Positions 2,682 through 24,300 of a stretch of 64,000 nucleotides of DNA are shown in pieces. Below the pieces are notes generated by a model. It worked only from the letters and a program-made list of their open reading frames with translations, was not told where the DNA came from and made no database searches. Position numbers and translations under genes: made by a program. The stretch is from the NCBI RefSeq assembly GCF_031312595.1, contig NZ_CP133592.1:372001-436000 (forward strand), read 5' to 3'. The stretch comes from Methanolobus sediminis. Its GTDB lineage: Archaea; Halobacteriota; Methanosarcinia; Methanosarcinales; Methanosarcinaceae. The first letter of the stretch is position 1. The number at the start of each line of letters is the position of its first letter.

Positions 2682-5303
2682 ATGATGAATATAAAAAATA
2701 AAAACAATAAAAACTTAGTTTTTAAACCACTGTTTCTGCTTTTAGCAGTGCTTATTTTGACAGGCACTGCCATGGCAGCAAACAACAGCACAGGAAACAG
2801 AATATGGGATGCAGATGAAAATCTCTCTCTTGAATACACCTGGACTGCACTAAGTTATTCAGGATTTTACTATGACCTTGACTCAGGTGTCGGGTCAGAA
2901 ACACTCACAATCACCCTTGACAGTGACAGCGACAGAAGCATTGGAGACGGTGACCTTGAGTATTCAACAACACCAATCGATACTGATTTTGAACATGACG
3001 ACTGGGGTTCATATCAGGTAATCGGATTTATGGCAGAAAGATACTTCGCAGGCTATACCGATGATACGGAATTTGCAGATGACAGTGTTAGCCTGATATC
3101 AGACGGCATACTTGCAAAAGTACTGCTTGACGATGATGAAAAGATCTCACTTTATTCAGGTTCCTCACTCATACTTGAAGAAGGATATGAACTTGAAGTT
3201 GTGGAAGTAGACCTGAATGGCGACAGTGTCATGGTAACACTCTCACAGGATGGAGACCAACTTGATACAAGTATTGTTTCCGCAGATGATGATTATGTAT
3301 ATGAGAAAGAGATTGGTACTGATGATGAAGTTCCAATAATTGCAGTACACTTCAACAATATCTTCCAGGGAACTGAAACAAATGCAGTGTTTGTTGAGGG
3401 CGTCTTCCAGATATCCGAAGACTATGTTGAAATCGAATCAGGAGATTCTTTCGGAAAGATGGAAGTTAAGACCTTAAGTTCTGACATGATCACAATGGAG
3501 AACTCAGATGGCATTTCACTTGGAAGAGGTGACACAGTCAGCATAATGGGTAAACTGAAATTCATCGTTGCAGATGACAGCACCCTGAGATTTGGCCCTG
3601 TACTTGACATGTCAGACCCTGGAACCTATGAACTTAGAGGTACAGTGGCAGAAGATGAAGAACTCACATGGACACCACTGAACTTTGAAGGTTTCTACTA
3701 CAACATTGATGAGGGCGTAGGAACAGAATCACTTGAGATCAAAGACCTTGGTGGAAGGACTATAGATGATGGTGACCTTGTTTACAGGAGTGTCCCACTT
3801 GATGTGAGCTTTGAACACGATGACTGGGGAGACTTCCAGGTTGTCGGTTTCATGGCAGAGAAATACTTTGCCGGATATCCGGATAATGAATTTACTGATG
3901 ATGTAAGCCTGCTTTCAGACGGCAAACTATCAAAAGTACTCATTGATGATGACAGTAAGAACTCACTTTACTCTGGCTCATCATTGATACTGGAAGACGG
4001 ATATGAACTTGCAGTAGTGGAAGTTGATACAAATGGTGACAGTGTCATGGTAAATCTCTTACAGAATGGAGATGAGGTAGACACATCAATTGTATCTTCA
4101 GACGATGATTATGTCTACGAGAAAGATATTGGATCAGTAGATAATGTGCCTGTAATTGTCGTGCACTTCGATGAAATATTCCAGGGTACTGAGACAAATG
4201 CAGTATTTATTGAAGGTATCTTCCAGATATCAGAAGACCTTGTAGAGATATCAGACAACGAAAAATTCGGTGAGATGGAAGTTACAAGTTTCTCATCAGA
4301 TGAGATCGTCCTTAAGAACGAGGATTCAATCTCACTCACAAGAGGAAAGATCATTGACATTATGGGTGATATTTCATTCAATGTTGCCGACTCTGGTGAT
4401 GTACGCTACTATCCTTTCGTTGAAGTTTCCACCGAGCCAACTGAATCTCTTGCAATAGAAATCGATTCTGTGGTGAAAGAAGACGAAGAAATTGACATCG
4501 AAGTTACATCCAGAGGTGCTGCTGTAAGTGGTGCTACCGTAATGTTTGGAGATGATGAAGCTGGAACTACAGGTACTGATGGAACTATTTCTTACACCCC
4601 TGGTACAGCCGGCACTTTTACAGTAACTGCTGAAAAGGACGGATATGTTTCTGCAAGCGAGAAGGTAGAAGTTATCTCTTCTGATGATGCTACAAAGAAG
4701 CTTATCATTGAAGTATCACCTGAGAGTGTTGTTGAAGAAGACATCATCACAATTTCAGTTATGACTGCAATCGGAGGCGATGCTGTTGAGGATGTACAGG
4801 TCTACTATGACAACAACCTCATAGGAACCACTGACGCGGACGGCACAGTTACCTACACCGTAAAAGAGACAGGAATGCACAAACTTGAAACTTCAGCAAG
4901 CAACTACCTTGATGCAGAGCTTAATCTTGAGGTTCTTGCCCTGGAAGCAAAGTTCACATACTCAAACCTCCAGGTAAGCCCAATACTTGTGAAAACAGGT
5001 GAAGATGTTACTGTAACTGTGGATGTAACAAACACAGGAACAGCAGCAGGTGACAAGGATGTTGAGCTAATGGTCAATGGAACAACTGTGAACTCACAGA
5101 GTGTTTCACTTGATACAGATGAATCAACTACTTTGACATTCACAGTCTCTGAAGAGGAAGCAGGAACCTATGAGGTCCAGGTTGGCAGTTCTACAGCAAC
5201 TTTTGATGTTGAAAAGAGCTCCATCCCGGGTCCGGGAATTCTGGTATCTGTAATGGCATTCATTGCTGTTGCAATGCTGATACGCAGGAAAGAGAACAAA
5301 TAA
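2682..5303 (+). CDS. Major-type S-layer surface protein, two S-layer domains plus Ig-like stalk
   Basis: This 873-residue surface protein has a signal peptide (residues 1 to about 33, cleavage after TGTAMA). Two tandem copies of the methanosarcinal S-layer duplication domain follow (roughly 36-305 and 315-575, each with the WTxLxxxGFYYxxxxGVG(S/T)E(S/T)L opening and a DDxYVYEK segment). Next come two carboxypeptidase-regulatory or Ig-like domains (about 580-750), a CARDB-like domain (about 755-845), and a C-terminal hydrophobic segment with a basic tail (RRKENK). The last part begins IPGPG, a variant of the PGF-CTERM archaeosortase signal. The composition is acidic, as expected for a cell envelope layer. 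GGGGAATT upstream of the ATG may serve as ribosome site. It could be the main lattice protein or a paralogue; sequence alone does not decide. Confidence 0.9.
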   Translation: MMNIKNKNNKNLVFKPLFLLLAVLILTGTAMAANNSTGNRIWDADENLSLEYTWTALSYSGFYYDLDSGVGSETLTITLDSDSDRSIGDGDLEYSTTPIDTDFEHDDWGSYQVIGFMAERYFAGYTDDTEFADDSVSLISDGILAKVLLDDDEKISLYSGSSLILEEGYELEVVEVDLNGDSVMVTLSQDGDQLDTSIVSADDDYVYEKEIGTDDEVPIIAVHFNNIFQGTETNAVFVEGVFQISEDYVEIESGDSFGKMEVKTLSSDMITMENSDGISLGRGDTVSIMGKLKFIVADDSTLRFGPVLDMSDPGTYELRGTVAEDEELTWTPLNFEGFYYNIDEGVGTESLEIKDLGGRTIDDGDLVYRSVPLDVSFEHDDWGDFQVVGFMAEKYFAGYPDNEFTDDVSLLSDGKLSKVLIDDDSKNSLYSGSSLILEDGYELAVVEVDTNGDSVMVNLLQNGDEVDTSIVSSDDDYVYEKDIGSVDNVPVIVVHFDEIFQGTETNAVFIEGIFQISEDLVEISDNEKFGEMEVTSFSSDEIVLKNEDSISLTRGKIIDIMGDISFNVADSGDVRYYPFVEVSTEPTESLAIEIDSVVKEDEEIDIEVTSRGAAVSGATVMFGDDEAGTTGTDGTISYTPGTAGTFTVTAEKDGYVSASEKVEVISSDDATKKLIIEVSPESVVEEDIITISVMTAIGGDAVEDVQVYYDNNLIGTTDADGTVTYTVKETGMHKLETSASNYLDAELNLEVLALEAKFTYSNLQVSPILVKTGEDVTVTVDVTNTGTAAGDKDVELMVNGTTVNSQSVSLDTDESTTLTFTVSEEEAGTYEVQVGSSTATFDVEKSSIPGPGILVSVMAFIAVAMLIRRKENK

Positions 5304-5326
5304 GGAAAGAACTTAAAAGTAAATTT

Positions 5327-5348
5327 GTACCTGCATTTGTGCAGGTAC
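5327..5348 (+). terminator. Terminator hairpin after the S-layer gene
   Basis: GTACCTGCA (5327-5335) and TGCAGGTAC (5340-5348) form a perfect 9-bp stem with a 4-base loop, followed by a T-rich tract (TTTAACTATTTTTTG). It sits between two convergent genes, the S-layer gene and the amylase, and could stop transcription from either side. Confidence 0.75.
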
Positions 5349-5415
5349 TTTAACTATTTTTTGTAAATCATTTTTCTACAGTATAAAACTGATTTGTTTT
5401 GAATAAACCGGGACA

Positions 5416-7143
5416 CTATCCCTGTTTTAAAATTGCCATTGAATAAGGTTCCAATGATACCTTTACAAACATTGTGGAATCTGACTGTTCAATTAAATAC
5501 TCATTATCAGAGTGAAGCAGGTCTTTCATTTTTTGTCCTGCTGAATGAAGGTTGCTGTCTACAACAATGCAATCGCTACGGGATTCAGAATCAAGATTTA
5601 GAGCAACAAGTATCTCTGTTGTATCAAGTATTCGTGAATAAGCCAGAATACAATTGCCAGTTGACGGATGAGAGAACTCCTTTCCTGTTTCAGAAGTCTG
5701 CCTGAAATATTGCCTTCCATAGCGAAGTGCTGGTTCTGAAAGCCTTATGCCTGCAACTCTGGATATGTCTTTGTAGATTGGATTATCAGGATTGAAGAAA
5801 TGATATCCTTTCGTTCCGAAAGCTCCCCATTCACCACCAAACATACACTCCCGGATATATACATCATCCTCGCCTCCACCATCAAAACCCTGTTCTGTGC
5901 CGTAATAGATGCAGGGTATACCCTGGCTTGTGAGTAAATATGTCATTGCAAGAACAACCTGCTGATGAATGGTGTTCCCATACATGAAACGCCTGTATGG
6001 CCTTATCATCTGGTCATGATTATCTACGAAGGTCACAAAATACCGGCCAGCTTCTCCGTGATCCGTATAAAGGTTCCTGAAGGCATCATACCTATTCCTG
6101 AGAACTGATGGTTCATTGAACCCTTTTATTACTTCCTCAAGCACAAAATAAAGTGGGAAATCAAGAGCTGCATCCAGGGACGGGAAGCGCTCATTGGTTC
6201 CGGGAATACGACTGTTGCGACCAATATATTGCTGTATTGTGGTGTCATCGCCAACAATTTCCCCGAAAATGAAGAAATTGTGTTTGCCGATGGATTTCGC
6301 ATATTCCTTGATGGCATTACAGAAGATGGCTGTGGAACTGGATTCCAGATGCTTCACTGTGTCCATTCTAAAACCATCGATATCTGTTGTCTTTATCCAG
6401 TACTTGTAAGCCTTGATCAGAGTGTCAAGAACATCGTACCTGCGTACATCAAGTTCTTTCAGCGTGAAAAAATCACCATTTACCGCCTGTTCATTGTCGT
6501 TCCAGTCTGTAATCTGGCCTCTTCTCTTGTAACATTCAGGATCCTGAAGTTCCTCCGGCCAGACAGCATCGTTTTCACCAATAATGTTCTGATCATTATC
6601 AGTGGGAAAAGTACGCCATTTACCAAAATCAAAAGGACCGGGGGCATCTTTCCAGTAATAGTACGGATAACTGCCAGGATATGACCAGTTATCTCCAGTA
6701 TGGTTGATTATGATATCCAGAATTACGTACATATCCCGGCTGTGGGCTTCTTTTACAAGTTCCTGCAGGTCTTCCAGAGATCCGAACCGCTCATCAACCC
6801 TCAGAAAATCCTGAATTCCATAACCGTGATAACTGTCCTCCTTTTCCTGCCGGTTCCTGAATACCGGACTTAACCAGATAGCATTGGCACCCAGACCTTT
6901 GATATAATCAAGTCTTCGGGTTATGCCTTTTATATTACCGCCCTGGAACTTTTTCCCCTGTGAGATATCAAGCTCCTGCGACTCTGATGAACTGCTGTAA
7001 GCTTCTGTATCCACCGCATTGTTGTCAAACCTGTCCACCAGCAAAAAATAAATGAACACATCCCTCCAGTCTGAAGGAGATGGAAAAACACTATTTTGAA
7101 TATCGAAGTTAATGTCTTTAACAGATTGGATATTTTCTCCCAT
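5416..7143 (-). CDS. Alpha-amylase family glycosidase (GH13)
   Basis: This 575-residue protein carries all four GH13 regions in order: DIIINH near residue 140, GFRMDTVKH with the nucleophile Asp near residue 257, FGEIVGDD with the acid Glu near residue 296, and FVDNHD near residue 375. The N-terminus (DWRDVFIYFLLVDRFDN) is the usual barrel entry of cyclomaltodextrinase and neopullulanase-like enzymes. No signal peptide is visible, so it should act in the cytoplasm on stored glucan. The C-terminal beta domain is short. It converges with the S-layer gene and belongs functionally with the debranching enzyme and glycosyltransferase. Exact specificity (amylase, maltodextrinase or branching) is not decided by these motifs. 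AGGGATTC just upstream of ATG 7143 is a plausible ribosome site. Confidence 0.88.
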   Translation of the reverse strand: MGENIQSVKDINFDIQNSVFPSPSDWRDVFIYFLLVDRFDNNAVDTEAYSSSSESQELDISQGKKFQGGNIKGITRRLDYIKGLGANAIWLSPVFRNRQEKEDSYHGYGIQDFLRVDERFGSLEDLQELVKEAHSRDMYVILDIIINHTGDNWSYPGSYPYYYWKDAPGPFDFGKWRTFPTDNDQNIIGENDAVWPEELQDPECYKRRGQITDWNDNEQAVNGDFFTLKELDVRRYDVLDTLIKAYKYWIKTTDIDGFRMDTVKHLESSSTAIFCNAIKEYAKSIGKHNFFIFGEIVGDDTTIQQYIGRNSRIPGTNERFPSLDAALDFPLYFVLEEVIKGFNEPSVLRNRYDAFRNLYTDHGEAGRYFVTFVDNHDQMIRPYRRFMYGNTIHQQVVLAMTYLLTSQGIPCIYYGTEQGFDGGGEDDVYIRECMFGGEWGAFGTKGYHFFNPDNPIYKDISRVAGIRLSEPALRYGRQYFRQTSETGKEFSHPSTGNCILAYSRILDTTEILVALNLDSESRSDCIVVDSNLHSAGQKMKDLLHSDNEYLIEQSDSTMFVKVSLEPYSMAILKQG

Positions 7144-8089: not shown

Positions 8090-8599
8090 TTATGCGGGAA
8101 TAATACCCGCACTTTCCAGATTACTCATCATCTTTTTCTGTTCATCTGTGAATACTCGTTCAATATCCAGAAGTACAAGCAATCTGCCATCAATCTTTCC
8201 AACACCCTGTATATATCGCTCACTTACACCTTTTGTGATAATATCAGGTGCTTTGTCAATATCGTCTGTAGATATCCTTAGTACCTCAGTAACAGAGTCA
8301 ACAATCATCCCTGCAGTAAGGTTACCCAATTCCACAACCACAATACGTGAACTGGCATCTTTTGTGCTGCTCATCAGACCAAACCTTTTAGCAAGATCTA
8401 TAACAGGGACCAGACATCCCCTCAAATTAATCATGCCTTCCACATAGCTAAGTGTTTGAGGAATATTAGTGATCTCAGGAACACGGATAATTTCTTTTAC
8501 TCTTGATATATCAATACCGAATTCTTCATCGGAAAGCTGGCATATAACCAGTTGGAGCAGCTCTTCTGTTGAGCTGCCATCCTTCACGAATTCTTCCAT
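8090..8599 (-). CDS. cheW: CheW chemotaxis coupling protein
   Basis: This 169-residue CheW-like protein should couple chemoreceptors to the CheA kinase. The N-terminal extension of about 15 residues precedes the CheW core: QLVICQLSDEEFGIDISRVKEI, then ITNIPQTLSYVEGMINLRGCLVPVIDLAKRF, where the NLRG and PVIDL motifs are diagnostic, and a final LLVLLDIERVF. It begins 17 bases after the stop of the large chemoreceptor, with GAGG in the gap, so the pair is an operon and CheW may be dedicated to that receptor. No cheA, cheY, cheB or cheR lies in this window. A terminator hairpin overlaps its stop codon. Confidence 0.92.
   Translation of the reverse strand: MEEFVKDGSSTEELLQLVICQLSDEEFGIDISRVKEIIRVPEITNIPQTLSYVEGMINLRGCLVPVIDLAKRFGLMSSTKDASSRIVVVELGNLTAGMIVDSVTEVLRISTDDIDKAPDIITKGVSERYIQGVGKIDGRLLVLLDIERVFTDEQKKMMSNLESAGIIPA
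8093..8111 (-). terminator. Terminator at the end of the receptor-cheW operon
   Basis: TGCGGG and CCCGCA (8093-8098 and 8106-8111) form a 6-bp stem around a 7-base loop at the end of cheW. On the minus strand it is followed by the stop codon and a T-rich run (TAATCTTATTTTATT). Confidence 0.6.
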
Positions 8600-8616: not shown

Positions 8617-11600
8617 TCAGATCAATGCATTGTTAGCATACTTTATTGACTTTCCATGACCATCAACTGATGATGAGACTTGGTTGATATTAGTTGCTGT
8701 AGCTTGATTTACAGAATCCAGTTTGAACTTGGAGACTACAAGTTGCATGTTGGCCGCAACATCTGATAGTTCCTGAGCAGACCTTGCAAGTTCCTGCATG
8801 GAAGCGGTCTGTTCCTGAACAGATGCGGAAGCTTGTTCAGCACCTGCAGCAGATTCTTCAGAGATTGCAGATACTTCCTCTACAGAAGATGTAACCTCTT
8901 CAATTGAAGCTGACTGTTCCTCTGCAGCAGCAGCAATCTCCTGGACCATGTTAACGATCGTATTTCCAGCTGTTACGACTTCCCCGATTGCAATTACAGA
9001 GTTATCAAGGGAAAGTGCACCTGTATCAACCTCTTCAGCAGCTTTCTTCATAGAGGTTACTGCATCCATCGTTCCACTCTGCATCTTGGTGATCAATTCT
9101 GCGATCTGCTTGGCTGCATTACCTGAATCCTCGGCCAGTTTTCTAACTTCATCAGCTACCACTGCAAATCCACGACCATGTTCACCAGCCCTTGCAGCTT
9201 CAATCGCTGCATTAAGGGCAAGCAGATTGGTCTGATCTGCAATATTAGTTATGAGATTAACAATCTGTCCTATCTGCTTTGATTTCTCATCAAGATCATT
9301 GATGACATTTGAAGAATCACCCACTGAAGACTTGATGCTATTCATCTTTAACTTCAGTTCCTTGGACATTTCTCCAAGATTCTGTATGAGCTTATTGGAC
9401 TCTACAGAAGTTTGTGCAGCCCTATCAGAGTTAGTGGCTACTTCCTGAACAGTGCGGCTCATATCACTCATAGCTCTTGATACTTCTTCTGCTTTACCGG
9501 ATTGAGCCTGTGTGCCTTGAGAAATCTCAGCTACGGTACTGGTTATCTGTTCTGCGGTAGCTGATAATTCTTCACTGGATGCAGACATTTCCTGAGCGGT
9601 AGATGCAATGGCCTCAGCATTATCTGTCACAAGACCTACTATATCATTGAGTGAAGATCTGCAGTTCTCCACACCTTCTGTGAGCTGGACAAAATCACCT
9701 ACACCATATACTGTCACTCTTCTTGTGAGGTCATTGGCTGAAATCGAATCGAGAACTGCACATGAATCACCAATAATACCCTGCAAAGTATCACCGAAAC
9801 CATCAAGAGTATCCCCAAGAACCTTGAAATCACCCTTTGCATCTATAGATACTCTAGCATCAAGGTTACCTTCTGCATAGGCAGTAATAATCCTTGAAGC
9901 CTCGTTCACAGGACCAACGACAGCATCAAGACAGTTGTTGACACCTTCAACAATCTTAAGATAATCACCCTGATGTTTGGAAGCATCAGCACGGGTCGCA
10001 AGTTCACCATTAACACCGGCCTGTGCCAGAATATTTGCATCTTCGACAAGCAGGTTTATTGCATCGATGCACTGGTTGAGGTTGTTCTTGATGGCATTGA
10101 AGTCACCTGAATATTCATCTGTGATCTTGTCAGGGACATCTCCTTTTGAGATACGGTCAACATATTCGGCAGCAACGTTGAGTGGACCAATGACTGCATC
10201 AAGAGTATCATTGACACCTTCAACGATGGCACGGTAATCACCGAAGTGTTTGGAAGCATCGGCACGGGTATCAAGCTTACCTTCAACAGCAGCATCTGAA
10301 AGCATGTTAGCATCAGAAACAAGCAGGTTTATTGCATCGATACACTGGTTAAGGTTGTTCTTGATAGTGTTAAAGTCACCGTTGTAGTCATCCGTAATTT
10401 TCTCAGGGATAGCTCCCCTGGAGATACGGTCAACATATTCAGCAGCAACGTTCAGTGGGCCGATAACTGCATCGAGTGTGTCATTGACACCTTCAACAAT
10501 AGCACGGTAATCACCGAAGTGTTTGGAAGCATCGGCACGGGTATCAAGCTTACCTTCAACAGCAGCATCTGAAAGCATGTTAGCATCAGAAACAAGCAGG
10601 TTTATTGCATCGATACACTGGTTAAGGTTGTTCTTGATAGTGTTAAAGTCACCGTTGTAGTCATCCGTAATTTTCTCAGGGATAGCTCCCCTGGAGATAC
10701 GGTCAACATATTCAGCAGCAACGTTCAGTGGGCCGATAACTGCATCGAGTGTGTCATTGACACCTTCAACAATAGCACGGTAATCACCATGGTGTTTGGA
10801 GGCATCAGCACGGGTATCAAGTTTACCTTCAACAGCTGCTACAGAAAGCATATTGGCATCAGCGACAAGCAGGTTTATTGCATCGATACACTGGTTGAGG
10901 TTGTCCTTGATGGTGTTAAAGTCACCGTTGTAATCATCTGTGATCTTGTCAGGAATAGCTCCCCTGGAGATACGGTCAACATATTCAGCAGCAACGTTCA
11001 GTGGACCGATAACTGCATCGAGTGTGTCATTGACACCCTCAACAATAGCACGGTAATCACCCTGATGTTTTGAAGCATCGGCACGGGTATCAAGTTTACC
11101 TTCAACAGCAGCCTCTGAAAGCATGTTAGCATCAGCGACAAGCAGGTTTATTGCATCGATACACTGGTTGAGGTTGTTCTTGATCTCATTGAAGTCACCT
11201 GAATATTCATCTGTGATCTTGTCAGGTATTTCACCATGAGAGATGCGATCAACATATTCAGCAGCAACATTGAGTGGGCCGATAACTGCATCGAGTGTGT
11301 CATTGACACCCTCAACAATAGCACGGTAATCACCGAAGTGTTTGGAAGCATCGGCACGGGTATCAAGTTTACCTTTAACAGCAGCCTCTGAAAGCATGTT
11401 AGCATCAGCGACAAGCAGGTTTATTGCATCGATACACTGGTTGAGGTTGTTCTTGATCTCATTGAAGTCACCTGAATATTCATCTGTGATCTTGTCAGGT
11501 ATTTCACCATGAGAGATGCGATCAACATATTCAGCAGCAACATTGAGTGGACCAATAACTGCATCGAGTGTATCATTGACACCTTCAACAATAGCACGGT

Positions 11601-13209
11601 AATCGCCATGGTGTTTTGAAGCATCAGCACGGGTATCAAGCTTACCTTCAACAGCAGCATCTGAAAGCATGTTTGCATCAGAAACAAGCAGGTTTATTGC
11701 ATCGATACACTGGTTGAGGTTGTTCTTGATCTCATTGAAGTCACCTGAATATTCATCTGTGATCTTGTCAGGTATTTCTCCATGAGAGATGCGATCAACA
11801 TATTCAGCAGCAACATTGAGTGGACCGATAACTGCATCGAGTGTGTCATTGACACCCTCAACAATAACACGGTAATCACCATGGTGTTTTGAAGCATCGG
11901 CACGGGTATCGAGCTGACCTTTAACAGCTGCTGCAGAAAGCATATTAGCATCAGCGACAAGGGCATTTATTGAATCGATACATGTGTTAAGATTGTTCTT
12001 GATGGTGTTGAAATCACCTTTATAATCATCTGTTATCTTTTCTGGAATCGTTCCCTTTGCAATGCGATCAACGTAATCAGCAGCTACGTTCAAAGGAGTG
12101 ATAACAGCATCCATCACCTGATTGAAGCCTTTTGGGATCTCTTTGAAGTCAATGCCTACATTAAGGTCTGCCCTTCTGTCCAGTTTACCTTCAAGGGTGT
12201 CATTTGTAAGATTCTTAAAATCATCTACAATCTTGTTTATTGGTTTTGATATAAGTCTGGAGATGAAGAATGCCATTACAATACCAACAATGATAGCAAC
12301 TATGACCATTATGGTAAGTGTTAATATGGAACTTTGCATTCCCTGCTCCATCTTATCTTTCTGGTCAGCACGTGCCTCTTCTGTAATGGTCTGAACGGCA
12401 GATGCTTCTTGTTGCATTATTTCCTTTGCAACTACCTGCTCTTCTGCATAAGATACATAGGAATTGAAGTCAGATTTGTAGGCTGTTGCCGCAGCGACTA
12501 TTGCCTGTGCAGCATCCTTGTCTTCCTGTACCTGGAAACGTGAATCAAGAGTATTTCCAATTGTTATTATCTCGTCCATCATTTCATTGACATTATCTGC
12601 ATATTGATGGTCAACATGCAGCATAAAACGTAACCTTTCGCTACGTGCCTCGAGGGTGAGCTGCAAAAGCTGAGTGGCATAGTCCACATTGGTTCTCTCT
12701 TTCTCAATAACACTAATATCTGCATTTTGTGCAATAGCATTTGAAAGGTCTTCATCCTGTGTTGCAAGTATCTGGTTTATCTGATCTTCAAGGATAAGAC
12801 CACGTTCTATAAGATCTGCTTCAGCTTCACCTTTCTGATTCTCCAGTTCCACGTAATCATTGAAAGCATCATTATAGCTCAACGCCGCTGCCTGAACATC
12901 ATCCATCTGCTGATCATTCACAGGGTCAGTGAAGATCTCCTTTGAAGACTCTGTTTGAGCTACGATGTCAGTTACAACACTGTTTACTTTTTCAGAATAT
13001 GTAACATCCTTAGTCAATTGATAATTTTCTTCAGCGATACGTGCATCTTTCATGTATTTGACAAGACGGTTCATGTCATCTGCTTTGACCACCCTGTCAT
13101 TTACACCTGTCAATCCGTTATAACCACTATATCCAACAATAGCAGTTAGTAAGAGTAATATTACAAAACTTCCGATTAGAATGTTTTTTATTTTCATATT
13201 CTCAAACAT
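8617..13209 (-). CDS. Methyl-accepting chemotaxis protein with long poly-HAMP array
   Basis: This giant chemoreceptor (about 1530 residues) has a first membrane helix ([19 protein letters not shown]), an extracellular helical sensor of about 260 residues, and a second membrane helix near residue 300 ([19 protein letters not shown]). A canonical HAMP ([15 protein letters not shown]) follows, then eight tandem 91-residue repeats at 9931-12114, a ninth diverged copy, and a signalling domain whose tip is [20 protein letters not shown]. Each repeat looks like two HAMP modules: one starts [12 protein letters not shown], the other ADANMLS. GTG 13227 and ATG 13224 are possible starts, but only ATG 13209 has GGAG at good spacing. 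It forms an operon with cheW. The ligand is unknown. Confidence 0.9.
9931..12114 (-). repeat. Eight tandem 273-bp repeats encoding double HAMP units
   Basis: Eight consecutive copies of a 273-bp (91-codon) unit lie within the chemoreceptor gene, with no indels between them. The unit begins (L/M)DAVI(G/T)PLN and ends VEGVND(T) or VEGVNNC. Two units (numbers 6 and 7) have the same protein sequence, and bases 10229-10515 match 10502-10788 perfectly (287 bp at an offset of 273). The first and last units are the most diverged, the usual sign of expansion from the middle. Confidence 0.95.
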
Positions 13210-13723
13210 ACTTTGTATCTCCATCACAACACATTTTTAGAATAATATCGAATGATTTTTCTTTTAATCAAGATGTAAAATTAACACCTGTTTATCAATA
13301 GTTGATTTGTTACACATCGTGTTGCAAAACTAATTATTGATATATATGCCAGTTTTTGATTCACATTTTCTTTTTGAATCAAATCCCCTGCTATCAGTTT
13401 CCTCACGGTATTCTTTAAGTGAAACGTGAAATTTCCTCTCATTTGAACGCATTTCCAATCACATCCATCCTCCAGTGTAACTATATATACAGTTTAATTA
13501 AACTCAAAGAAATGTACATTTTAATGATAATCACTTTGAATTTAGTGCTATTTTATAATAATAAGCACATTCGCAATGCTCTTGTGCACAACATAAACAA
13601 TGTCAATTATATATAAATATATGGATTATATTTCGAGAGTTAATATCAAAGTAGTTTATCCAAGTGCCACCACTACACATATATAAACGAATAAATTTAT
13701 AGAACCGAGAGGTTCAAAAGTAC
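13210..13723. promoter_or_regulatory. Divergent promoter region between chemoreceptor and HTH-PAS gene
   Basis: This 514-base AT-rich gap has no convincing gene; a 65-codon frame inside it has low-complexity AT-driven composition. A TATA-like element TGATATATATG near 13338-13348 could serve the minus-strand receptor. TATATAAA at 13680-13687 lies about 40 bases before ATG 13724 and fits the plus-strand gene. A short inverted repeat, GAACC-GAGA-GGTTC (13702-13715), lies where transcription would start. Confidence 0.5.
13702..13715 (+). promoter_or_regulatory. Inverted repeat at the predicted start site of the HTH-PAS gene
   Basis: GAACC and GGTTC flank a GAGA loop, 15 to 28 bases downstream of the TATATAAA box and 8 bases before the start codon. 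It could be an operator, possibly for the HTH protein itself, or a small leader hairpin that covers the ribosome site. Confidence 0.35.
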
Positions 13724-15460
13724 ATGATAGGATACGACGCAGAAGTTGAGCGAATAAAAATGCTTCTTGAGGCAAATCCAAGAGGGATGACTGTAATAAA
13801 TCTGGCAAAAGAGCTCAACATCAGCAGAAATTCAGCTGCAAAATACCTAGATATACTATTAGTATCCGGCCAGGTTGAAATGGATAGCATAGGGCCTGCG
13901 AAAGTATACCATTTATCAACCCGCGTACCACCATCAAAATTGATTAATTACTCTTCCGATTGTGTAATATTAGTAGATGAAAAACAAAATATTATACACA
14001 TAAATGATAATTGTTCCAATTTATTCGATTTGGAAGAAAATATCCTTGGGACAAACATCAAAGATATATATGGAATAAATGCCGAAATCATATCAGAAAT
14101 TGATCATGCCTTTAATGAAGGCAAATATGATAATGAGACAGGTCAAATATCTATGAGTGGGCCGTATTTTAATGTCAGAATAATCCCTACTTTATCAGAG
14201 AGCAGATCTCCATGTGTTGCCATTATCATGGAAGATATTACTAAAGAAAAAACAATGGAAGAGAAGCTGAAAAAATATCGTACATTGATAGATACATTAA
14301 TAGATAATTGCATTAATGAAAATGATATAAACCTGCTTATTGAAAACATAAAAGTCGAAGGCAATGAATTAAAAGCATCTGAAGATAATACTTCCAGCAA
14401 ACGGATAATGTACCAAGAGATTATTAATTTCTTGCCTGATATAATTTATTTACTAAAAGAAGATGGGACTTTTCTTGATTATATAGCTTCAGATGATACT
14501 AAATTATTTAGATCTCCTTCTGAATTTTTAGGCAAAAAAATATGTGAGTGCTTTCCTGAAGCACAATCACGGCAAATGATGCAACATTTAGAGAAAGTTC
14601 TAAAATATGGTGAAATGGAACTTTTTCAATATCAGATAACAGTAAATGACAAAACGTACGATTTCGAAGCACGTTTAGTTCCAGGCAAAAATAGAGAGAT
14701 ATTAGCTATTGTTAGTGATGTTACAAGTAAAAAATTAACTGAAAACAGATTAGAAAGTATTTTTAGAGCACTGCCTGTTGCAGCCGGTATACTTACAAAT
14801 CGCAGATTCAAAGAAGTCAATCCTCGTATGATAGAAATGACAGGATACGCCACTGATGAACTGCTAGGATCACATGCGGATATGCTGTATCCCACTCCAG
14901 AAGAATCAGAGTTTGTTAGTGTTGAGAAATATAAACTAATTAGGGAAAATGGAGTTGGAACTGTTGAAACGCGATGGAAAAGAAAAAATGGCACTATTAT
15001 AGACATACTTTTATCATCAACCCCTCTTGACGGTTCTGATTTATCAAAAGGGGTTACTTTTACTGCACTAGATATTACTGACAGGAAAAAAGCAGAAAGA
15101 GCCCATAAGTTGTCAGAGGAAAAATTCCGGGCTTTCTTTGAGAAAAACAATGAATATTGCTATATAATCTCTCCAGAGGGGAATATAATTGACATAAATG
15201 AGTCTGCCCTTAAATTATTGGGCTATGAAAATGAAGAAATCATTGGAAAACCACTTGCAACCATCTACGCTCCTGAATTGCAATCTCGCATGAAAGAGAT
15301 ATTTCAAAAATGGCAACTTAAAGAAGACATAATTGATGAGGAAATGACAATAATAAGCAAATCTGGACAAAGAAGGACAGTACTTGTAAGTGTGTCAAAA
15401 TTACTTGATGAAGATGGAAATACCTTGTATTTGACATCTATCCAAAGAGATATCATGTAG
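13724..15460 (+). CDS. HTH-PAS signalling protein (winged helix plus four PAS domains)
   Basis: Residues 1 to about 65 form a winged helix (LAKELNISRNSAAKYLDIL is the helix-turn-helix), followed by PAS-like domains at roughly 70-170, 228-340, 345-460 and 462-578. The third has the clear MTGYATDELLG motif and ends DITDRKKAE; the fourth ends IQRDIM and then stops. No kinase, HATPase or receiver domain follows. HTH-multi-PAS proteins are common in methanogens and are thought to be one-component regulators, although direct DNA targets are rarely known. The last PAS closely resembles the second PAS of the kinase encoded next (NEYCYIISPEG versus VEYCYMISPDG). The ending exactly at a PAS border leaves open that the gene has lost a C-terminal output domain. 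Confidence 0.75.
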   Translation: MIGYDAEVERIKMLLEANPRGMTVINLAKELNISRNSAAKYLDILLVSGQVEMDSIGPAKVYHLSTRVPPSKLINYSSDCVILVDEKQNIIHINDNCSNLFDLEENILGTNIKDIYGINAEIISEIDHAFNEGKYDNETGQISMSGPYFNVRIIPTLSESRSPCVAIIMEDITKEKTMEEKLKKYRTLIDTLIDNCINENDINLLIENIKVEGNELKASEDNTSSKRIMYQEIINFLPDIIYLLKEDGTFLDYIASDDTKLFRSPSEFLGKKICECFPEAQSRQMMQHLEKVLKYGEMELFQYQITVNDKTYDFEARLVPGKNREILAIVSDVTSKKLTENRLESIFRALPVAAGILTNRRFKEVNPRMIEMTGYATDELLGSHADMLYPTPEESEFVSVEKYKLIRENGVGTVETRWKRKNGTIIDILLSSTPLDGSDLSKGVTFTALDITDRKKAERAHKLSEEKFRAFFEKNNEYCYIISPEGNIIDINESALKLLGYENEEIIGKPLATIYAPELQSRMKEIFQKWQLKEDIIDEEMTIISKSGQRRTVLVSVSKLLDEDGNTLYLTSIQRDIM

Positions 15461-16108: not shown

Positions 16109-19100
16109 ATGACTTCAATTCAGGATGTTACATTCAGAGAGATAAGAATAAAAGTCGAAAAAGAAAACCATGTGGTTAAAATTCCTGAAAAAGTATACCA
16201 AATTCTAATAGGATTAGAAAATGAATGTTACTGCTATTTAGATAAACAGGCTAATTTTCTTGAAGTCAGCAAGGAATATTGTGATCTTCTAGGTTATACA
16301 AGAGAAGAACTCCTGAATATGGGAGTAACTAATGTGGAAGTAAATGCTGATCCTGAACAAATAACATTCAGAATGAATAAAACTCTAAAAAATGGATTTA
16401 GCAGATTCGAGACACAGCACCAAACAAAAGATGGAAAAGTTGTGGACGTAGAGGTCAGTGCAATTTACACTGACCATAATTATTTTGGTTTTTTAGTGTC
16501 CATTAATGATATCACCGAAAAAAAGCAATCTCGAAGAGAACTTCAAAAAGAAAAAGAAAAGTTTAGAGCTTTGTTTGAGAACATTGTTGAATACTGTTAT
16601 ATGATATCACCTGATGGGACCATAATTGATCTTAATAATTCAGCTTTGAATATATTAGGCTATGATAAAAATGAGTTGATAGGGCAACCCATTTCAATGA
16701 TCTATGCTCCCGAATCACATACCCATATGAAAAAGGTCTTTGAAAAATGGAAGAACACAGGATATGTGAACAACGAAGAAATGATAATTATAACCCGTTC
16801 AGGTGAACGTAGGAATATTTTGTTAAGTGCAAGTCAGTTGGTCAGTGATCAGGGTAATGTTCTGCATTCAATATCCATTCAAAAAGATATTACAGAAAAG
16901 AAAAAGTGGGAAAAGGGACTTGAGGAAGAGAGGGTAAAGAGATGTCTCTTTTTTGAAAGTTCATTGGATGGGATTGTAGTTCTTGATGAAGAAGGAAAAG
17001 TCTATGATGCTAACGAACAGTTCGGGAATATGTTGGGATATTCTTTAGAAGAGGTTAAAAAACTTCATATATGGGACTGGAATACTATTTTTACACGTGA
17101 ACAATTAATTGAATTGCTCAAAAATGTGCACGATCATAGCTATTTGTTCGAGACAATTCATAGATGCAAAAATGGTACTTGCATTAATGTAGAGATATCC
17201 TCTAATGTATTTTATGAGAATGAGAAGAAATTGATCTTATGCATTTGCAGGGACTTTTCAGAACGTATAAAGGCAGAAAAAGAACTTTATGAGAGTGAAT
17301 TAAAATATCGCTCATTGTTCGATCAATCCGTAGATGGAATATATCTTCATGACCATAAAGGAAATATCCTCGATGCTAACAATGGGGCTGTTACACAGTC
17401 AGGTTATTCGAAAGAAGAACTGATGCAGATGATTCTGTTTGATTTTATTGTTGATGAATTGGATCCAGATGAAATCATGAAACAATGGTCTCAGTGGAAA
17501 CCAGGACAAACGGTGACGATCGAAACAAACCATAAACACAAAGATGGTCACATATATCCTGTTGAAATAAGCACAAGTTGTGTAAAATATGGGTCTGAGA
17601 ATTACATAATGGCCATGGTCAAGGACATTAGCGAACGCAAAAAAGCGGAGATTGAGCTACGTGAAAACGAGGGATTACTGAGACTCCTAATAGAGCATGC
17701 ACCTGTGGCATTGGCGATGTTCGACCGTAATATGCGATACATAGCTGCAAGCAATCGATGGCTGACTGACTACTATCTTGGTGATATCGATATTATTGGT
17801 AAGTGTCATTATGACATATTCCCCGAAATCCCGGAAGAGTGGAAAGAAATGCATAGAAAGACTTTGAAAGGAGAGGTCTGCCCCGTTAAAGAAACTCGTT
17901 TGGAACGTGTAGATGGAAGAATACAGTGGGTGAAAGGAGAGGTTCGACCATGGAGAACAGCAGATGGTGCTGTTGGTGGAATTGTACTATTATCAGAAGA
18001 TATTACTGAAAGCAAAAAGGTTAAAGAGGTACTTGAGGAAAGTGAGAAGATATTCAAGTCATTCTTTGAACAATCATCGGTAGGTGTTGTTCAAGTAACA
18101 CCATATGGAGACTACCTTCAGGTTAACAAACGATTCTGTGATATGGTTGGCTATTCTTCTGATGAATTAGTTGGAATGAACTTTAGAGTGATAACTCATC
18201 CTGATGATCTGAAACTTAACAACCGATTTATTCTTCAAACAATTTCAGGAGAAATTGACTCTTATGAACTCGAAAAAAGATTGGTGCATAAAAATGGGGA
18301 TATTATTTGGATCAGATTATATTCTAAAACAATAAGAGATGAAAAAAATTCACCACAATACAATATTTCTGTGATAACAGATATCACCGAGCAAAAGAAG
18401 GTTACTAATGAACTTGTAAAGAGAAAAAGACAACTTTCGCTTGCAATGGAAGCCTCTGAGTATGGATTCTGGGAACTTGATATTGATACAAATAAAGTAC
18501 ACATGAGTCCCACTTTGTACGAAATAAATGGTTACAAACCTGATAAACTTCCTAGCGATCTTAACTTATTGCTTGATCACATTCATCCAGATGATAAAGA
18601 TAAATTAATGACTACCATCAAAAGAAGTATCCTTGACATAACGCCGATGTCTATTGAATATAGAATAAAACATAGTTCAGGTGAATGGAGGTGGATGTCT
18701 TCTAAAGGAAGACCTGTAGACCTTGATGAAAAAGGTGTTCCTCATTCTTTTGTTGGAACACAGATGGATATCACCTCAAGAGTGGATGCAGAAAAGACTT
18801 TACTCTATGCCAGATTGCTGGCTGATGAATACAACTGTATGAAAAGTGACATGTTAAAAAACATCACTCATGAACTCAGGACACCTCTCACAGCAATTAT
18901 AGGTTTTTCTGATGTGCTGATAAGTAGTGAACAAAATGAGTTTACCGATACGTGCCGGAAATATGTAGAATACATTAACACTAGTGGTAAAGACCTGCTG
19001 CAGATAATCAATTGTATGCTTGATTTTACAATCGTGGAAAATAGTGACCCTGACACACTGGCAATCAAAACTTTTGAAGTTGAGGGACTTATATCTGAAG

Positions 19101-19534
19101 TTTTAAGGCTAAATTATACTAAAGCAATGAAAAAGAACATTGCTTTACAGAGCATCATTGAGGATTCGTCTTTAACTCTTGCTGCCGATAAAGAAAAACT
19201 AAAGCATGCTCTGTACAACCTTGTGGATAACGCAATTAAATTTACAGAATATTCTGGTTCAGTAAAAATAGAAGTAAAAACATTGAGTAATAATATTCAA
19301 TTTTCAGTTCATGATACAGGAATAGGAATAGCAGAAGAGAAACATGAAACAATCTTCAAACCATTTGTACAGATAGATGGTTCATTATCACGAAAATACA
19401 GTGGTACAGGACTTGGTCTGGCTCTGGCTAAAAAAATAATAGAACTTCATGATGGGACAATTAAAGTTGAAAGCGAACTAGGAAAAGGTGCCAAATTTAT
19501 AGTTCAGATTCCTTTGAACATTGTATATGACTAA
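16109..19534 (+). CDS. Cytoplasmic sensor histidine kinase with seven PAS domains
   Basis: This 1141-residue kinase has no membrane segment. About seven PAS domains occupy residues 30-890; recurring marks are LGY(T/S/D) followed by (E/K)EL and the endings DITEKK, DFSERI, DISERK, DITESK, DITEQK and DITSRV. The transmitter follows: H-box NITHELRTPL near residue 925, N-box NLVDNAIKF, G1 DTGIGIAEE and G2 GTGLGLALAKKII. It should autophosphorylate on His in response to internal cues such as redox, small ligands or energy state. No receiver gene is adjacent, so its partner is encoded elsewhere. GGAG lies about 8 bases before ATG 16109. The gene follows a long structured leader region. Confidence 0.9.
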   Translation: MTSIQDVTFREIRIKVEKENHVVKIPEKVYQILIGLENECYCYLDKQANFLEVSKEYCDLLGYTREELLNMGVTNVEVNADPEQITFRMNKTLKNGFSRFETQHQTKDGKVVDVEVSAIYTDHNYFGFLVSINDITEKKQSRRELQKEKEKFRALFENIVEYCYMISPDGTIIDLNNSALNILGYDKNELIGQPISMIYAPESHTHMKKVFEKWKNTGYVNNEEMIIITRSGERRNILLSASQLVSDQGNVLHSISIQKDITEKKKWEKGLEEERVKRCLFFESSLDGIVVLDEEGKVYDANEQFGNMLGYSLEEVKKLHIWDWNTIFTREQLIELLKNVHDHSYLFETIHRCKNGTCINVEISSNVFYENEKKLILCICRDFSERIKAEKELYESELKYRSLFDQSVDGIYLHDHKGNILDANNGAVTQSGYSKEELMQMILFDFIVDELDPDEIMKQWSQWKPGQTVTIETNHKHKDGHIYPVEISTSCVKYGSENYIMAMVKDISERKKAEIELRENEGLLRLLIEHAPVALAMFDRNMRYIAASNRWLTDYYLGDIDIIGKCHYDIFPEIPEEWKEMHRKTLKGEVCPVKETRLERVDGRIQWVKGEVRPWRTADGAVGGIVLLSEDITESKKVKEVLEESEKIFKSFFEQSSVGVVQVTPYGDYLQVNKRFCDMVGYSSDELVGMNFRVITHPDDLKLNNRFILQTISGEIDSYELEKRLVHKNGDIIWIRLYSKTIRDEKNSPQYNISVITDITEQKKVTNELVKRKRQLSLAMEASEYGFWELDIDTNKVHMSPTLYEINGYKPDKLPSDLNLLLDHIHPDDKDKLMTTIKRSILDITPMSIEYRIKHSSGEWRWMSSKGRPVDLDEKGVPHSFVGTQMDITSRVDAEKTLLYARLLADEYNCMKSDMLKNITHELRTPLTAIIGFSDVLISSEQNEFTDTCRKYVEYINTSGKDLLQIINCMLDFTIVENSDPDTLAIKTFEVEGLISEVLRLNYTKAMKKNIALQSIIEDSSLTLAADKEKLKHALYNLVDNAIKFTEYSGSVKIEVKTLSNNIQFSVHDTGIGIAEEKHETIFKPFVQIDGSLSRKYSGTGLGLALAKKIIELHDGTIKVESELGKGAKFIVQIPLNIVYD

Positions 19535-19652
19535 AAGTGAATTAATCAGATAGTTCAATTGATTTATAAAAATTTAATTTAGGGTCTGCCATTTACTTAA
19601 TAACTTAAATCCCATGTAGCAAATTGATTTTTTTAAAACTGATACGGTTCTC

Positions 19653-19680
19653 AGATGATAATATCTAGATGATAATATCT
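19653..19680. repeat. Tandem 14-bp repeat
   Basis: AGATGATAATATCT occurs twice back to back (19653-19666 and 19667-19680). Each unit has inverted AGAT/ATCT ends. It lies between the convergent ends of two kinase genes, so a promoter role is unlikely. Confidence 0.75.
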
Positions 19681-19787
19681 ATTACATGAAAAAGAATCTT
19701 AAAGCTGATAGACTTTTGATTCTGAACTCTCGTGTTAGAGAGGAAGAGACAGGAGGACTTATTTAGATTTAATTTCAGATGTAAATA

Positions 19788-21023
19788 CTAAATCATTTTA
19801 AGTGGTAGTGTAAAAGTGAATGTACTTCCTTTATTAGTTTCACTTTGTACATTGATGTCTCCACCATGCATTTCAACTAGACTTTTAGCAATAGCCAATC
19901 CCAAACCTGTTCCTTTGTGTTCACGGGATGAAAAAGAATTTACTTGTTGGAAGGAATTAAACAAGATTTTTTGATCATTCAGAGATATCCCAATACCATT
20001 ATCAATTACTGAAACTGATAAATTATTGTTAATCACGTCTGCTTTCACACATACTTTGCCATTTAAAGAAGTAAATTTGATAGCATTACTGATTAGATTG
20101 CATAATATTTGTTTGAACATTGATTTATCAGCATAAATTAAGTTTACCTCTTTGCTAATCAAAACCTCAAAATCGGTGTTTTTTTCAGCAATTAATGGAG
20201 AAAACATCTCCGAAACTGTAGAGATTGTTTCAGGAACTTCAAAGTATTCTGGATAGATTTCCATTTTTCCAGATTCGATCTTTGATATATCAAGAATATC
20301 ATTGATCAAACTAAGTAAATGTTTTCCACCAACATTTATATTTAGAATATGTTTTGCTTGCTTTTCATTAAGTTTTCCAAATGATTCAGTAAGCAATAAA
20401 TCGGAAAAACCAATTATAGCATTCAAAGGTGTTCTTAACTCATGACTGACACTTGCCAGAAAAACACTTTTAGCTTTATTTGCAGTGTCCGCTTCATTCT
20501 TGGCATTAATCAGCAGCTTTTCGCTTTCTTTTAACTTTTTTTCGTTTTCTTTTTGTTCAGTCACATCGTCAACAGTTAATAATACTTTGTGCTCCGTCTT
20601 AAGAGTAATAAAAGTTGTAGAAATTAGAAGTAATCTCTTTAATTCCTGATCATTTACTTTTGTTGTAAGTTCTCCCTCTTGCTTATAGATATTTTCAGAA
20701 GTCTGAAACGTATGCATCACTGCATTTCTAACAGGACAGTACTTACAATTTGCATTCTTTCCGCAGCCTGCATCTTCAAATGAATTTATACAAGAAAAAA
20801 GCTCTCCACCTAATAATCCCAATGAATCTTCTTTTTTTATTCCGAGAACTTCAGATGTTGTATTATTTATATTTTCAATTTTTCCTTCTGGATTTACAAC
20901 AATCATTATAAAAGGTGCATTATCAAAGATCGTTTTAAACAAAACCATATCATTAGACATATTGTTGTATATTGAAACATCGCTTTCAGTCGATTTGCAG
21001 ATACTTTTTTCTGTTTTGTTCAT
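19788..21023 (-). CDS. Sensor histidine kinase with Cys-rich PAS domain
   Basis: The protein is about 411 residues from ATG 21023, which is preferred over ATG 21119 because the upstream extension is AT-driven and a TATA-like AAATATATTAAT (about 21060-21072) lies just upstream of 21023. A single PAS domain ([20 protein letters not shown]) contains four Cys in the pattern C-x8-CG-x4-C-x2-CP, suggesting a metal or iron-sulphur site or thiol redox sensing. The transmitter has H-box [11 protein letters not shown]-box [10 protein letters not shown]1 [10 protein letters not shown] and G2 [13 protein letters not shown]. It has no membrane segment, and no receiver gene is adjacent. It diverges from the hybrid kinase across a TA tract. 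Confidence 0.87.
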
Positions 21024-21352
21024 GAAAATACCTGAGATCTGTAAAATTAATTGAATAATATTAATATATTTTGCTCTAATACACAAAAACAAAGGCATTT
21101 GTTGCATTCTTTTATACACGTATATATATATATATATATAATAGTAGTATGTTAAATAGATTTGCAGAAAATGATTCTTTGTTAGCTAATTATTACTGTA
21201 ATTTGTATATGAATATTTATATATATGTAGCTCTTACACAATATTTGCAACATTTAAGCAAAGCTAATTGTGGATTAAAACTCACTCAGTTAGTGGTTGT
21301 TAACTTGTTAATCAAAATATATCCTGATCAAAGCAAACAATAGGGTGGTCAT
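21024..21352. promoter_or_regulatory. Divergent promoter gap with (TA)n tract
   Basis: This 329-base, very AT-rich gap separates two divergent kinases. It contains ten perfect TA repeats at 21121-21140, plus TATA-like elements near 21060-21072 (minus strand) and 21215-21226 (plus strand). A 64-codon frame at 21149-21343 has no recognisable features and is not called. GGGTGG at 21344-21349 is the likely ribosome site of the gene starting at 21353. Confidence 0.5.
21121..21140. repeat. (TA)10 dinucleotide tract
   Basis: Ten TA units in a row, followed by ATA, lie between divergent kinase genes. Such tracts can change length by slippage. Confidence 0.9.
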
Positions 21353-24300
21353 GTGGTTCAAAATGGTGTTAAAGAAAACGAAGATAATGAAAAAGAGTAT
21401 TTACATCTAATTTTGAAGTCTGTAGATATGGTTTTATGGTCTGCAACCTTTCCTGACCTTGAACTTATTCGTATCAGCTCCTCATCTGAAAACATTCTGG
21501 GAACCGACCCTCAGAAGCTTTTAATGGAAAAAAATCTATGGTATCAATTCGTCCATCCTGATGATCTTGATATTGTGCAAGAAGCTACAAAACAAAGAGA
21601 ATTGAAAGGTGAAGCAACAGCAGAGTATCGTATCCTGAGACCCGACGGAAGTATTTCCTGGGTTCGTGAAAGTTCTGAAGTCAAGTATGACACTGATAAT
21701 GCTTCTGTACGTGTAGATGGTATTCTCACAGATATAAGTAGGAGTAAGAAAGCTGAAGAAGAATTGAAAATAAGAGAAGAGCGTTTGAGAAGTCTTTCAT
21801 CTATTCTCCATTACAGGACAGATTCGGTTCAGGATTTCCTTGACTTCGCCCTTAATGAATCTATAAAACTTACTCGAAGCAAGATAGGGTACATCTACTA
21901 TTATGATGAAGAAAAAAAGGAATTTAGTCTAAATACCTGGTCTAATAACGTAATGAAGGAATGTGAGGTAACCGAACCACAGACCAAATACCAACTTGAA
22001 CATACCGGTATCTGGGGAGAAGCAGTCAGGCAACGCAGAGAAATAATCGTAAACGACTTTCAAGCTTCAAATCCACTAAAAAAAGGTTATCCTGAAGGGC
22101 ATGTGGAGCTTTACAGATATATGACGGTACCAGTGATAAAAAACGATAAAATAGTTGCTGTTGTCGGTGTGGCTAATAAAGAATCGGATTACAGTAAAGA
22201 TAATGCACTTGAGCTGGCCTTGCTTATGGATTCTGTGTGGAATGCTACTGAAAATAAAAAAATTGAACAGGCGCTTCAACAAAGCGAAAAGATCCATAGG
22301 CAGGCACACAATATCTTGCAAGGTATTATTGAAAGTCCAAAAGACGTAATTATATTTGCTCTCGACAAGGAGTATAGATATCTTGCTTTCAACACAAATC
22401 ATCAGTTAACAATGAAGCAGATATGGGGTGTCAATATTGAAGATGGCACTTGCATGCTTGACTACATTCAAAGCGATGAGGACAGGGAAAAAGCAAAAGA
22501 TAATTTTGACAGGGCACTTACAGGTGAAGCATTCACTATTATTGAAGAATATGGTAATTCCTTATTCGAAAGACGATGGTATTCGAATATGTATAGTCCC
22601 CTTAAGGATGATGAAGGAAATATTGCCGGTCTCACTCTCATTTTATCTGATATCACTGAAAGCAAACGTTCGGAACAGGCTCTTTTAGCAGAAGAAGCTA
22701 GAATTAGAGCGATTGCTGAGTCTGCGCAGGATGCGATCCTGATGATGGATCCGCAAGGTAATATCTCTCTATGGAATCCGGCTGCAGAACGAATTTTTGG
22801 ATATTCAATAGAGGAAGCTGTCGGCCAAAACCTGCATTTGTTACTGGCACCGTCACGTTATCATTCAGCACAGCAAGAAGCCCTAACTAAATTCCTCAAA
22901 ACAGGGCAGGGCGATGCTGTGGGTAATACTGTGGAATTAGAGGCTATTTGTAAGGATGAGCGGGAAATACCAGTTGAACTTTCACTTTCTGCGATAGAAC
23001 TTTCCGATGGTTGGCACTCAGTGGGAATTATACGTGACATTACAGAGCGGAAGGAACTGGAAAATACCCTTATTGTTGAGAAGGAAAAAGCTCAGGAAGC
23101 AACACGGGCAAAGAGTGAGTTCCTGGCAAATATGTCCCACGAGATACGCACACCTATGAACGGTGTCATTGGCATGACAGGGCTGCTTCTTGATACTGAC
23201 CTCAGTGATGAACAAAGACATTATGCTGAAACTGTGAAATTAAGCGGAGAATCACTACTTCAACTTATTAATGATATCCTGGACTTCTCCAAGATAGAGG
23301 CTGGAAAACTGGAACTGGAAACCGTGGATTTTAATTTGCATGAAATGCTGGATGATTTTGCTTCCATGCTCTCAATAAAAGCTCATGAGAAAGAACTGGA
23401 ATTTATCTGTGCGCCTGAACACGATGTTCCTGCATATGTCCAGGGTGATCCCGGACGCTTGCAACAAGTACTGACCAACCTTACTGGAAACGCAATTAAG
23501 TTCACTCATAAAGGTGAGGTAGTTGTACAGGTAATTCTTGAATCAGAGACTGATACTGAAGCATTTTTACGTTTCTCAGTTTGTGATACTGGTGTTGGTA
23601 TCCCTGAAAATAAAAAATATGATCTATTCGATAAATTCTATCAGGTTGATGCATCAACCACAAGACAATATGGTGGTACAGGACTTGGACTGGCAATCTC
23701 CAAACAGCTGGTTGAGATGATGGGAGGCGATATTGGTGTGGAAAGTGAGAATGGTAAAGGTTCAGAGTTTTGGTTCAGAATAAACCTTACAAAAAAACAG
23801 GATGGTAGTTCTAAGAAAATTAAATCTTCAGAACTCAAGGATTCATACGTCCTGGTTGTTGATGATAACGCCACGAATCGTGAGATCCTCAACAAGCGAA
23901 TAAGTTCATGGGGTGCCAAAGTAGATGAGGCCATGGACGGTCCTACAGCACTTCAGGCTTTGTATCGTGCACATGAAAACGGTAAACAATATCAGGTGGT
24001 TATCCTCGATATGCATATGCCTGGAATGGATGGTGAATCGGCAGCAAAATTCATCAAATCTGATACAAAACTAAAATCTATCCCTCTGGTGATGCTTAGC
24101 TCCTTAGGGCAACGTTCCAATGTCCTGAACTTCAGTGAGAGATATTTTGAAGCATACCTCACCAAGCCTGTAAGAAATCAGGAATTACTGGATGTCCTAT
24201 CTGGAATATTGAATAAGGAAAAACAGAATAATGAAGTCAATACTCATGTGAACACACCTTCAACTCCTTCTCGTGACCATAAGAACTTAAGATTGTTGCT

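Follow-up and report, generated by a model that had tools for sequence, protein, structure and literature searches.

A membrane chemoreceptor of Methanolobus sediminis with a stalk of 19 HAMP domains, and set HAMP-pair numbers among some of its relatives

Poly-HAMP chains of the HAMP_2 family (PF18947) consist of 91-residue units, each made of two concatenated HAMP domains, which follow one another end to end with alternation of types. A divergent HAMP cluster has been described by Dunin-Horkawicz and Lupas (2010) and by Airola (2010), both as cited in PMC3570549, where a relay of signals by alternating conformers is proposed for concatenated HAMPs. In Pseudomonas aeruginosa Aer2, a soluble protein, five HAMPs with a haem-binding PAS domain between HAMP blocks lead to an MCP signalling tip; in the fungal group III hybrid histidine kinases, repeated pairs lead to a kinase output, as in CaNik1, whose nine HAMPs include four 92-residue pairs (PMC3848655). 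McpS-type chemoreceptors have two transmembrane (TM) segments and a sensor of the HBM fold. Chemoreceptor arrays form only within one receptor length class, and an insertion of 14 residues is enough to segregate receptors (PMC6759762, citing Herrera Seitz 2014 for segregation by height); the membrane-to-baseplate distance is about 25 nm in common arrays and 35–40 nm in the tall F7 arrays (PMC7184735). The 64,000-nucleotide stretch of the Methanolobus sediminis genome analysed here (contig NZ_CP133592.1, positions 372,001 to 436,000; the window) carries the gene of a chemoreceptor that bears a likeness to each of these systems.

The receptor joins the poly-HAMP chemoreceptors already known, from which nothing basic sets it apart; its 19 HAMPs exceed those of structurally studied chains and fall short of the roughly 15 pairs of a Nitrospiraceae receptor described below. 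What is new is a rule of length. Judged by sequence, membrane-to-tip lengths are equal in Methanolobus and in two Desulfuromonadales metagenome-assembled genomes (MAGs) and mixed in other genomes, and selection seems to act on how many repeats a receptor has. The receptor shares with Aer2 the poly-HAMP chain ahead of an MCP tip but differs from it in having two TM segments and an external HBM-type sensor, and a Pfam scan found no PAS domain in it. With the fungal kinases it shares the pair-repeat architecture, whereas these have fewer pairs and no chemoreceptor tip. Its TM segments and sensor fold are those of the McpS type, which is not known to have a multi-HAMP stalk. As in the known length classes, receptors of one height would share an array; the known classes are set by the heptads of the hairpin, whereas here the stalk would determine height through its count of HAMP pairs.

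The gene is a single open reading frame throughout, listed with a GTG start that is followed by ATG as the next codon. From the N-terminus, the protein consists of TM1, the HBM-type sensor, TM2, a membrane-proximal HAMP (HAMP0), eight 91-residue HAMP pairs, a diverged ninth pair and the MCP hairpin, giving 1 + 16 + 2 = 19 HAMPs. The TM segments were placed by a simple hydropathy scan, and the unit register was set at a conserved PLN, so that the eight units span residues 378–1105 (window 9913–12096). All features lie on the reverse strand:

8617..13227, reverse: poly-HAMP chemoreceptor, 1536 residues (reading frame and translation; Pfam HAMP_2 and MCPsignal)
13120..13197, reverse: TM1, residues 11–36 (hydropathy scan)
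12346..13119, reverse: extracytoplasmic, all-helical HBM-type sensor, residues 37–294 (AlphaFold2, Foldseek, weak Pfam HBM match)
12238..12345, reverse: TM2, residues 295–330 (hydropathy scan)
12097..12237, reverse: membrane-proximal HAMP0, B type, residues 331–377 (B-half versus A-half hidden Markov model)
11824..12096, reverse: HAMP pair 1 (A + B), residues 378–468
11551..11823, reverse: HAMP pair 2
11278..11550, reverse: HAMP pair 3
11005..11277, reverse: HAMP pair 4
10732..11004, reverse: HAMP pair 5
10459..10731, reverse: HAMP pair 6
10186..10458, reverse: HAMP pair 7, identical in protein to pair 6
9913..10185, reverse: HAMP pair 8
9640..9912, reverse: diverged last HAMP pair 9, residues 1106–1196 (best PF00672 stretch 1103–1149)
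8719..9639, reverse: MCP signalling hairpin, tip glutamate at residue 1349 (PF00015; tip arithmetic)
8090..8599, reverse: CheW (PF01584, E = 2e-40)

The preliminary description of this DNA had reported tandem HAMP-like units and a diverged ninth one. The former are eight in-frame units of 273 bp in an uninterrupted frame; Tandem Repeats Finder places them at 9938–12111 (period 273, 8.0 copies, 89% match, score 2904), which is the interval given in that description in another register. The ninth is present at residues 1106–1196. It is only 14–18% identical to the other units, and the unit model finds a counterpart before the MCP tip in relatives. Compared pairwise, units 1–8 are 73–100% identical in protein and 73–97% in DNA, the upper values being those of pairs 6 and 7. 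Because dN/dS among the units is mostly about 0.06–0.28, we conclude that they are under purifying selection. The hairpin that follows has a conserved tip (PF00015, E = 6e-47) and extends about 22.7 heptads from the end of the HAMPs to the tip, resembling class 44H by this arithmetic.

By their sequence, the units are HAMP domains. PF18947 matches the receptor in nine stretches (E = 4e-288) and PF00672 matches with E = 1e-20. A profile of HAMP0 and three units can be laid over the histidine-kinase construct 9trk for 255 positions with no break in register (E = 1e-15) and also matches the Aer2 structure 3vol; on the strength of these two solved structures, the chain would form a parallel dimeric four-helix bundle. 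An AlphaFold2 monomer of HAMP0 and three units was used for secondary structure only (pLDDT 45). Its helices start at positions 44, 87, 132, 178, 223, 269 and 314 and are joined by connectors of about 15 residues, the AS1–connector–AS2 pattern of HAMP domains. The profile matches and the periodicity of about 45 residues thus bear out the earlier reading of the units as HAMP-module pairs in a membrane chemoreceptor, and the contrary outcome that it had allowed for, units that are not HAMP, did not occur.

Each unit comprises two types of HAMP, A in its first half and B in its second. Models of the two halves, trained on Methanolobus, give about 97–111 bits to their own type in units 1–8 and 5–13 bits to the other. 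HAMP0 scores 31.3 bits with the B model and 7.1 bits with the A model, which groups it with the second halves of the units; moreover, the DExG motif that defines the canonical membrane-attached HAMP (PMC3570549) was not found at its connector–AS2 junction. The description of HAMP0 as canonical is therefore rejected. Across all collected poly-HAMP proteins, the types alternate at 1363 of 1372 direct HAMP junctions (771 BA, 592 AB, 5 BB and 4 AA), in part because whole pairs duplicate, and some of the nine exceptions sit in the diverged last pair, where the labels are unsure. The first HAMP is of type B in all 25 receptors whose first detected HAMP directly follows TM2. In many bacterial receptors there is space before the first B for one undetected HAMP; the HAMPs of a chain thus make an odd number in Methanolobus and probably an even one in Desulfuromonadales.

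Searches of the genus combined with a domain scan yielded 15 membrane poly-HAMP receptors from Methanolobus. Ten have eight units, three have five, one has two, and one, from genome G057, has five units, a PAS domain and two further units. Of the ten eight-unit receptors, eight have 954 residues between the first unit and the tip's QTN and the other two have 953, and this constancy is maintained with sensors of HBM, Cache_3–Cache_2 or dCache_3 type; a tree of the C-terminal regions shows that sensors have been exchanged. The interior units have been homogenised. Between genomes G000 and G062 they are 83.9% identical at the same position and 83.5% at different positions, against 93.1% within G000, and the units of the window receptor reach 97% identity in DNA whereas third codon positions are only some 50–60% identical between species. 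The genomes with two receptors agree in unit number, with five and five in G044 and eight and eight in each of G060, G061 and G062; the agreement in G044 alone is weak because its two genes have close C-termini.

A similar constancy is found in an independent lineage, in two Desulfuromonadales MAGs, in which layers are counted as pairs. Genome G193, of the Geobacteraceae, has 13 nine-layer receptors with TM2-to-tip lengths of 908–931 residues and three three-layer receptors of 362–371, and genome G196 has nine nine-layer receptors of 914–930 residues and three three-layer receptors of 360–371, so that there are 22 nine-layer receptors in all. In 12 receptors of G193, interior modules are 53.9% identical at the same position, 50.3% at different positions and 54.4% within a receptor, and so are not bound to a particular place in the chain. 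The first and last modules are position-specific; variant modules occur at differing positions, and the total is always nine.

Chains that bear a PAS domain behave in a related way. If a PAS segment of 133 residues replaced one pair, an excess of 42 residues over the length class would be expected, and if it were inserted, an excess of 133. The excesses observed are 37, 46, 39, 48 and 47 residues, with 37 in Methanolobus genome G057, and two neighbouring G196 genes (locus L225) differ by 37. PAS replaces a pair rather than adding to the chain in all seven cases, each with a Pfam PAS_4 match. A further G196 gene (contig C227) looks by inspection like such an exchange but is split over two loci. 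Within genomes, agreement in layer number exceeds that in shuffled data, with p = 0.002 in the set of 16 genomes and p = 0.004 when each lineage is represented by a single genome, the layer classes having been assigned by the analyst and shared ancestry not having been removed.

We consider it probable that the chain is a signal-conducting stalk that sets height and so lets receptors whose sensors differ take part in a common array. The stalk would be an unbroken dimeric rod in which 19 HAMP layers of alternating type carry the signal from the HBM-type sensor to the MCP tip, neighbouring layers taking opposite states in turn, the scheme put forward for Aer2. Because alternating conformers have been proposed for concatenated HAMPs, a stalk of HAMP pairs could lengthen a receptor without loss of signal. 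Since the stalk would also set the membrane-to-baseplate height, its layer number would be fixed by selection. Receptors sharing an array would need equal height, and hence the layer total would be kept while sensors are exchanged and HAMP pairs recombine; a PAS domain would enter by displacing one pair. Height matching would best account for a count that stays constant while sensors and interior units vary freely, and for the PAS-for-pair exchange. From helix arithmetic, with 30-residue helices spanning two layers, each HAMP would contribute about 22 Å, so that the 19 HAMPs would be some 42 nm in height with a further 23 nm or so for the hairpin; at 35 Å per HAMP, the value adopted in PMC6628036, the whole would measure about 90 nm. 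The preliminary description was right that such a chain must hold the tip at a great distance from the membrane. Its idea of a spacer that reaches a distant CheA array is the preferred one, narrowed to a height-matching stalk, while its idea of inputs along the stalk applies to relatives with PAS domains in the chain and not to the window protein, which has none.

In a more general form, which we advance tentatively, the number of HAMP pairs may be a genetically encoded ruler for array height, with counts quantised for each lineage and chemosensory system and with PAS isometric with one pair and swapped for it one to one, a second length code beside the heptad classes. If the count rule is true, the purpose of poly-HAMP chains becomes testable and array height predictable from sequence, with membrane-to-baseplate distances of about 60–90 nm, far more than the values for common and for tall F7 arrays. 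The rule would also show which receptors are able to occupy a common array and explain how sensors and PAS domains are exchanged without damage to it. It is more interesting than the single protein, provided that it is true in isolate genomes.

Several observations weigh against a height-setting stalk. The model of the units is poor and monomeric, the TM2 ends rest on the hydropathy scan, and shared ancestry inflates the within-genome test. Geomonas limicola (G192) and four other genomes (L133, L149, L157 and L173) hold receptors of clearly different heights. The host has one CheA, but its MCPs include, beside the window receptor, two membrane proteins that have a single HAMP and a similar tip, and there are therefore at least two heights in its cell; the single CheA would serve at least two receptor populations, perhaps, as a guess, through different CheW proteins. 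Gene conversion can homogenise units at an unchanged number, so constancy need not mean selection. G193 and G196 are the richest genomes but, being MAGs, may give false repeat counts; miscounting would hardly give nine every time, however. Contigs of the fragmented relatives G039, G045 and G056 do end inside such genes, so a wrong repeat number or a spurious frame has to be considered for the window receptor also. The frame is nevertheless open throughout, the host genome is in two contigs and 99.97% complete, and an artefact is very improbable because separately assembled relatives show the same number of units.

The alternative that we take most seriously, although we consider it unlikely, is that alternating layers tune or filter the signal by bistability, threshold or adaptation, their number setting its sign or gain and not the height. 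The almost complete lack of same-type neighbours fits this, as do the opposite-signalling HAMP conformers with alternating states in Aer2 and NpHtrII (PMC3570549) and the altered fungicide susceptibility that follows deletion of pairs in CaNik1 (PMC3848655). Any whole number of pairs would preserve parity, however, leaving a fixed eight or nine unexplained, and where PAS takes the place of a pair the layers stay the same in number but the HAMPs do not. A little less likely again is passive inheritance, in which the number of units has stayed the same only because the genes stem from duplications of recent date, the chain being a spacer that is tolerated with no selection on its length. The MCP helices of the G193 paralogs are 66–89% identical, the five-unit genes of G044 are close at their C-termini and some genomes mix heights, all of which would be expected; against this, interior units turn over and variants change position while the count stays at nine, ten receptors with unrelated sensors keep 953–954 residues, and PAS substitutes for a pair in seven of seven cases. 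It is improbable that the connectors bind cytosolic factors, making the chain an integrator of many inputs. Relatives with one or two PAS domains in the chain suggest it, but the window protein lacks an inserted sensor, and purifying selection acts on its near-identical units, none of which appears specialised.

A scan of GTDB genomes gave at least 569 confirmed relatives from Methanolobus, Methylomonas, Geobacteraceae, Kapaibacteria, Spirochaetes and others, those in the genus including M. profundi (contig NZ_FOUJ01000007), which has a receptor of eight units. Among the matches listed, TM poly-HAMP receptors span 2 to about 15 layers, the upper end being a receptor from a Nitrospiraceae MAG (L150) with 14 consecutive detected units. 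The architecture is thus spread over many phyla and includes longer chains than that of the window receptor, so that neither a record length nor the exceptional chain length claimed in the preliminary description can be upheld. Arrays of about 30 HAMPs were reportedly described in the poly-HAMP papers around that of Dunin-Horkawicz and Lupas in 2010. The eight, five and two units of Methanolobus might have indicated steps of three, with a rotational phase; as a general rule this was rejected, other lineages having 4, 5, 7 and 8 layers.

Two further observations concern the relatives. At L064, L065 and L066, orthologs have one strongly diverged unit–unit junction, containing another HAMP-like segment, and length is kept within one or a few residues. 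Loci L195–L211 of G193 and L215–L228 of G196 hold at least 150 copies of the 91-residue unit per genome in about 20 receptors each, many in tandem gene clusters, and these sets are a natural test set for poly-HAMP function.

The AlphaFold2 model of the sensor (pLDDT 86) has the six-helix bimodular HBM fold, its best Foldseek matches being the McpS ligand-binding domain structures 2yfa and 2yfb (TMt 0.82). The Pfam HBM match is below cut-off for the window sensor and above it in several relatives. The CheW gene lies 17 nt downstream of the receptor gene and is probably on the same transcript; CheW also directly follows the receptor gene at L062, L066, L068 and L106. The host has five MCPs, three CheW genes and one CheA, the che operon encoding CheA, CheB, CheR, CheC, CheD and a single-domain receiver protein. 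At first look CheA seemed interrupted by one TAA, which was rejected since the frame is intact (689 residues). Besides the two one-HAMP membrane receptors, the remaining MCPs are two poly-HAMP proteins without a predicted TM segment, one of which carries two PAS domains. This TM-less pair, at L043 (8718–16670), stays together in much of the genus, and the chain position of the double PAS varies among homologs. At L108, a gene for a 706-residue PilM/FtsA-like ATPase (3523–5643, reverse strand) lies within the che operon between cheR and cheC/cheA.

Divergent genes for helix–turn–helix (HTH)–PAS proteins adjoin the window receptor (13724–15460, forward) and the poly-HAMP gene pair of L043 (7358–8401, reverse). 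The same regulator flanks poly-HAMP genes at eleven further loci, but none was seen next to the window receptor's orthologs. Beyond the HTH–PAS gene, window 16109–25045 holds clustered histidine kinases of multi-PAS and hybrid type (1141, 443 and 1230 residues), and an S-layer protein gene is situated upstream (window 2682–5303, forward). Finally, MCP-like frames with one in-frame TAG occur at L036, L040, L042 and G077:C1:4543152-4544210, several same-family relatives, and these TAGs are possibly pyrrolysine codons.

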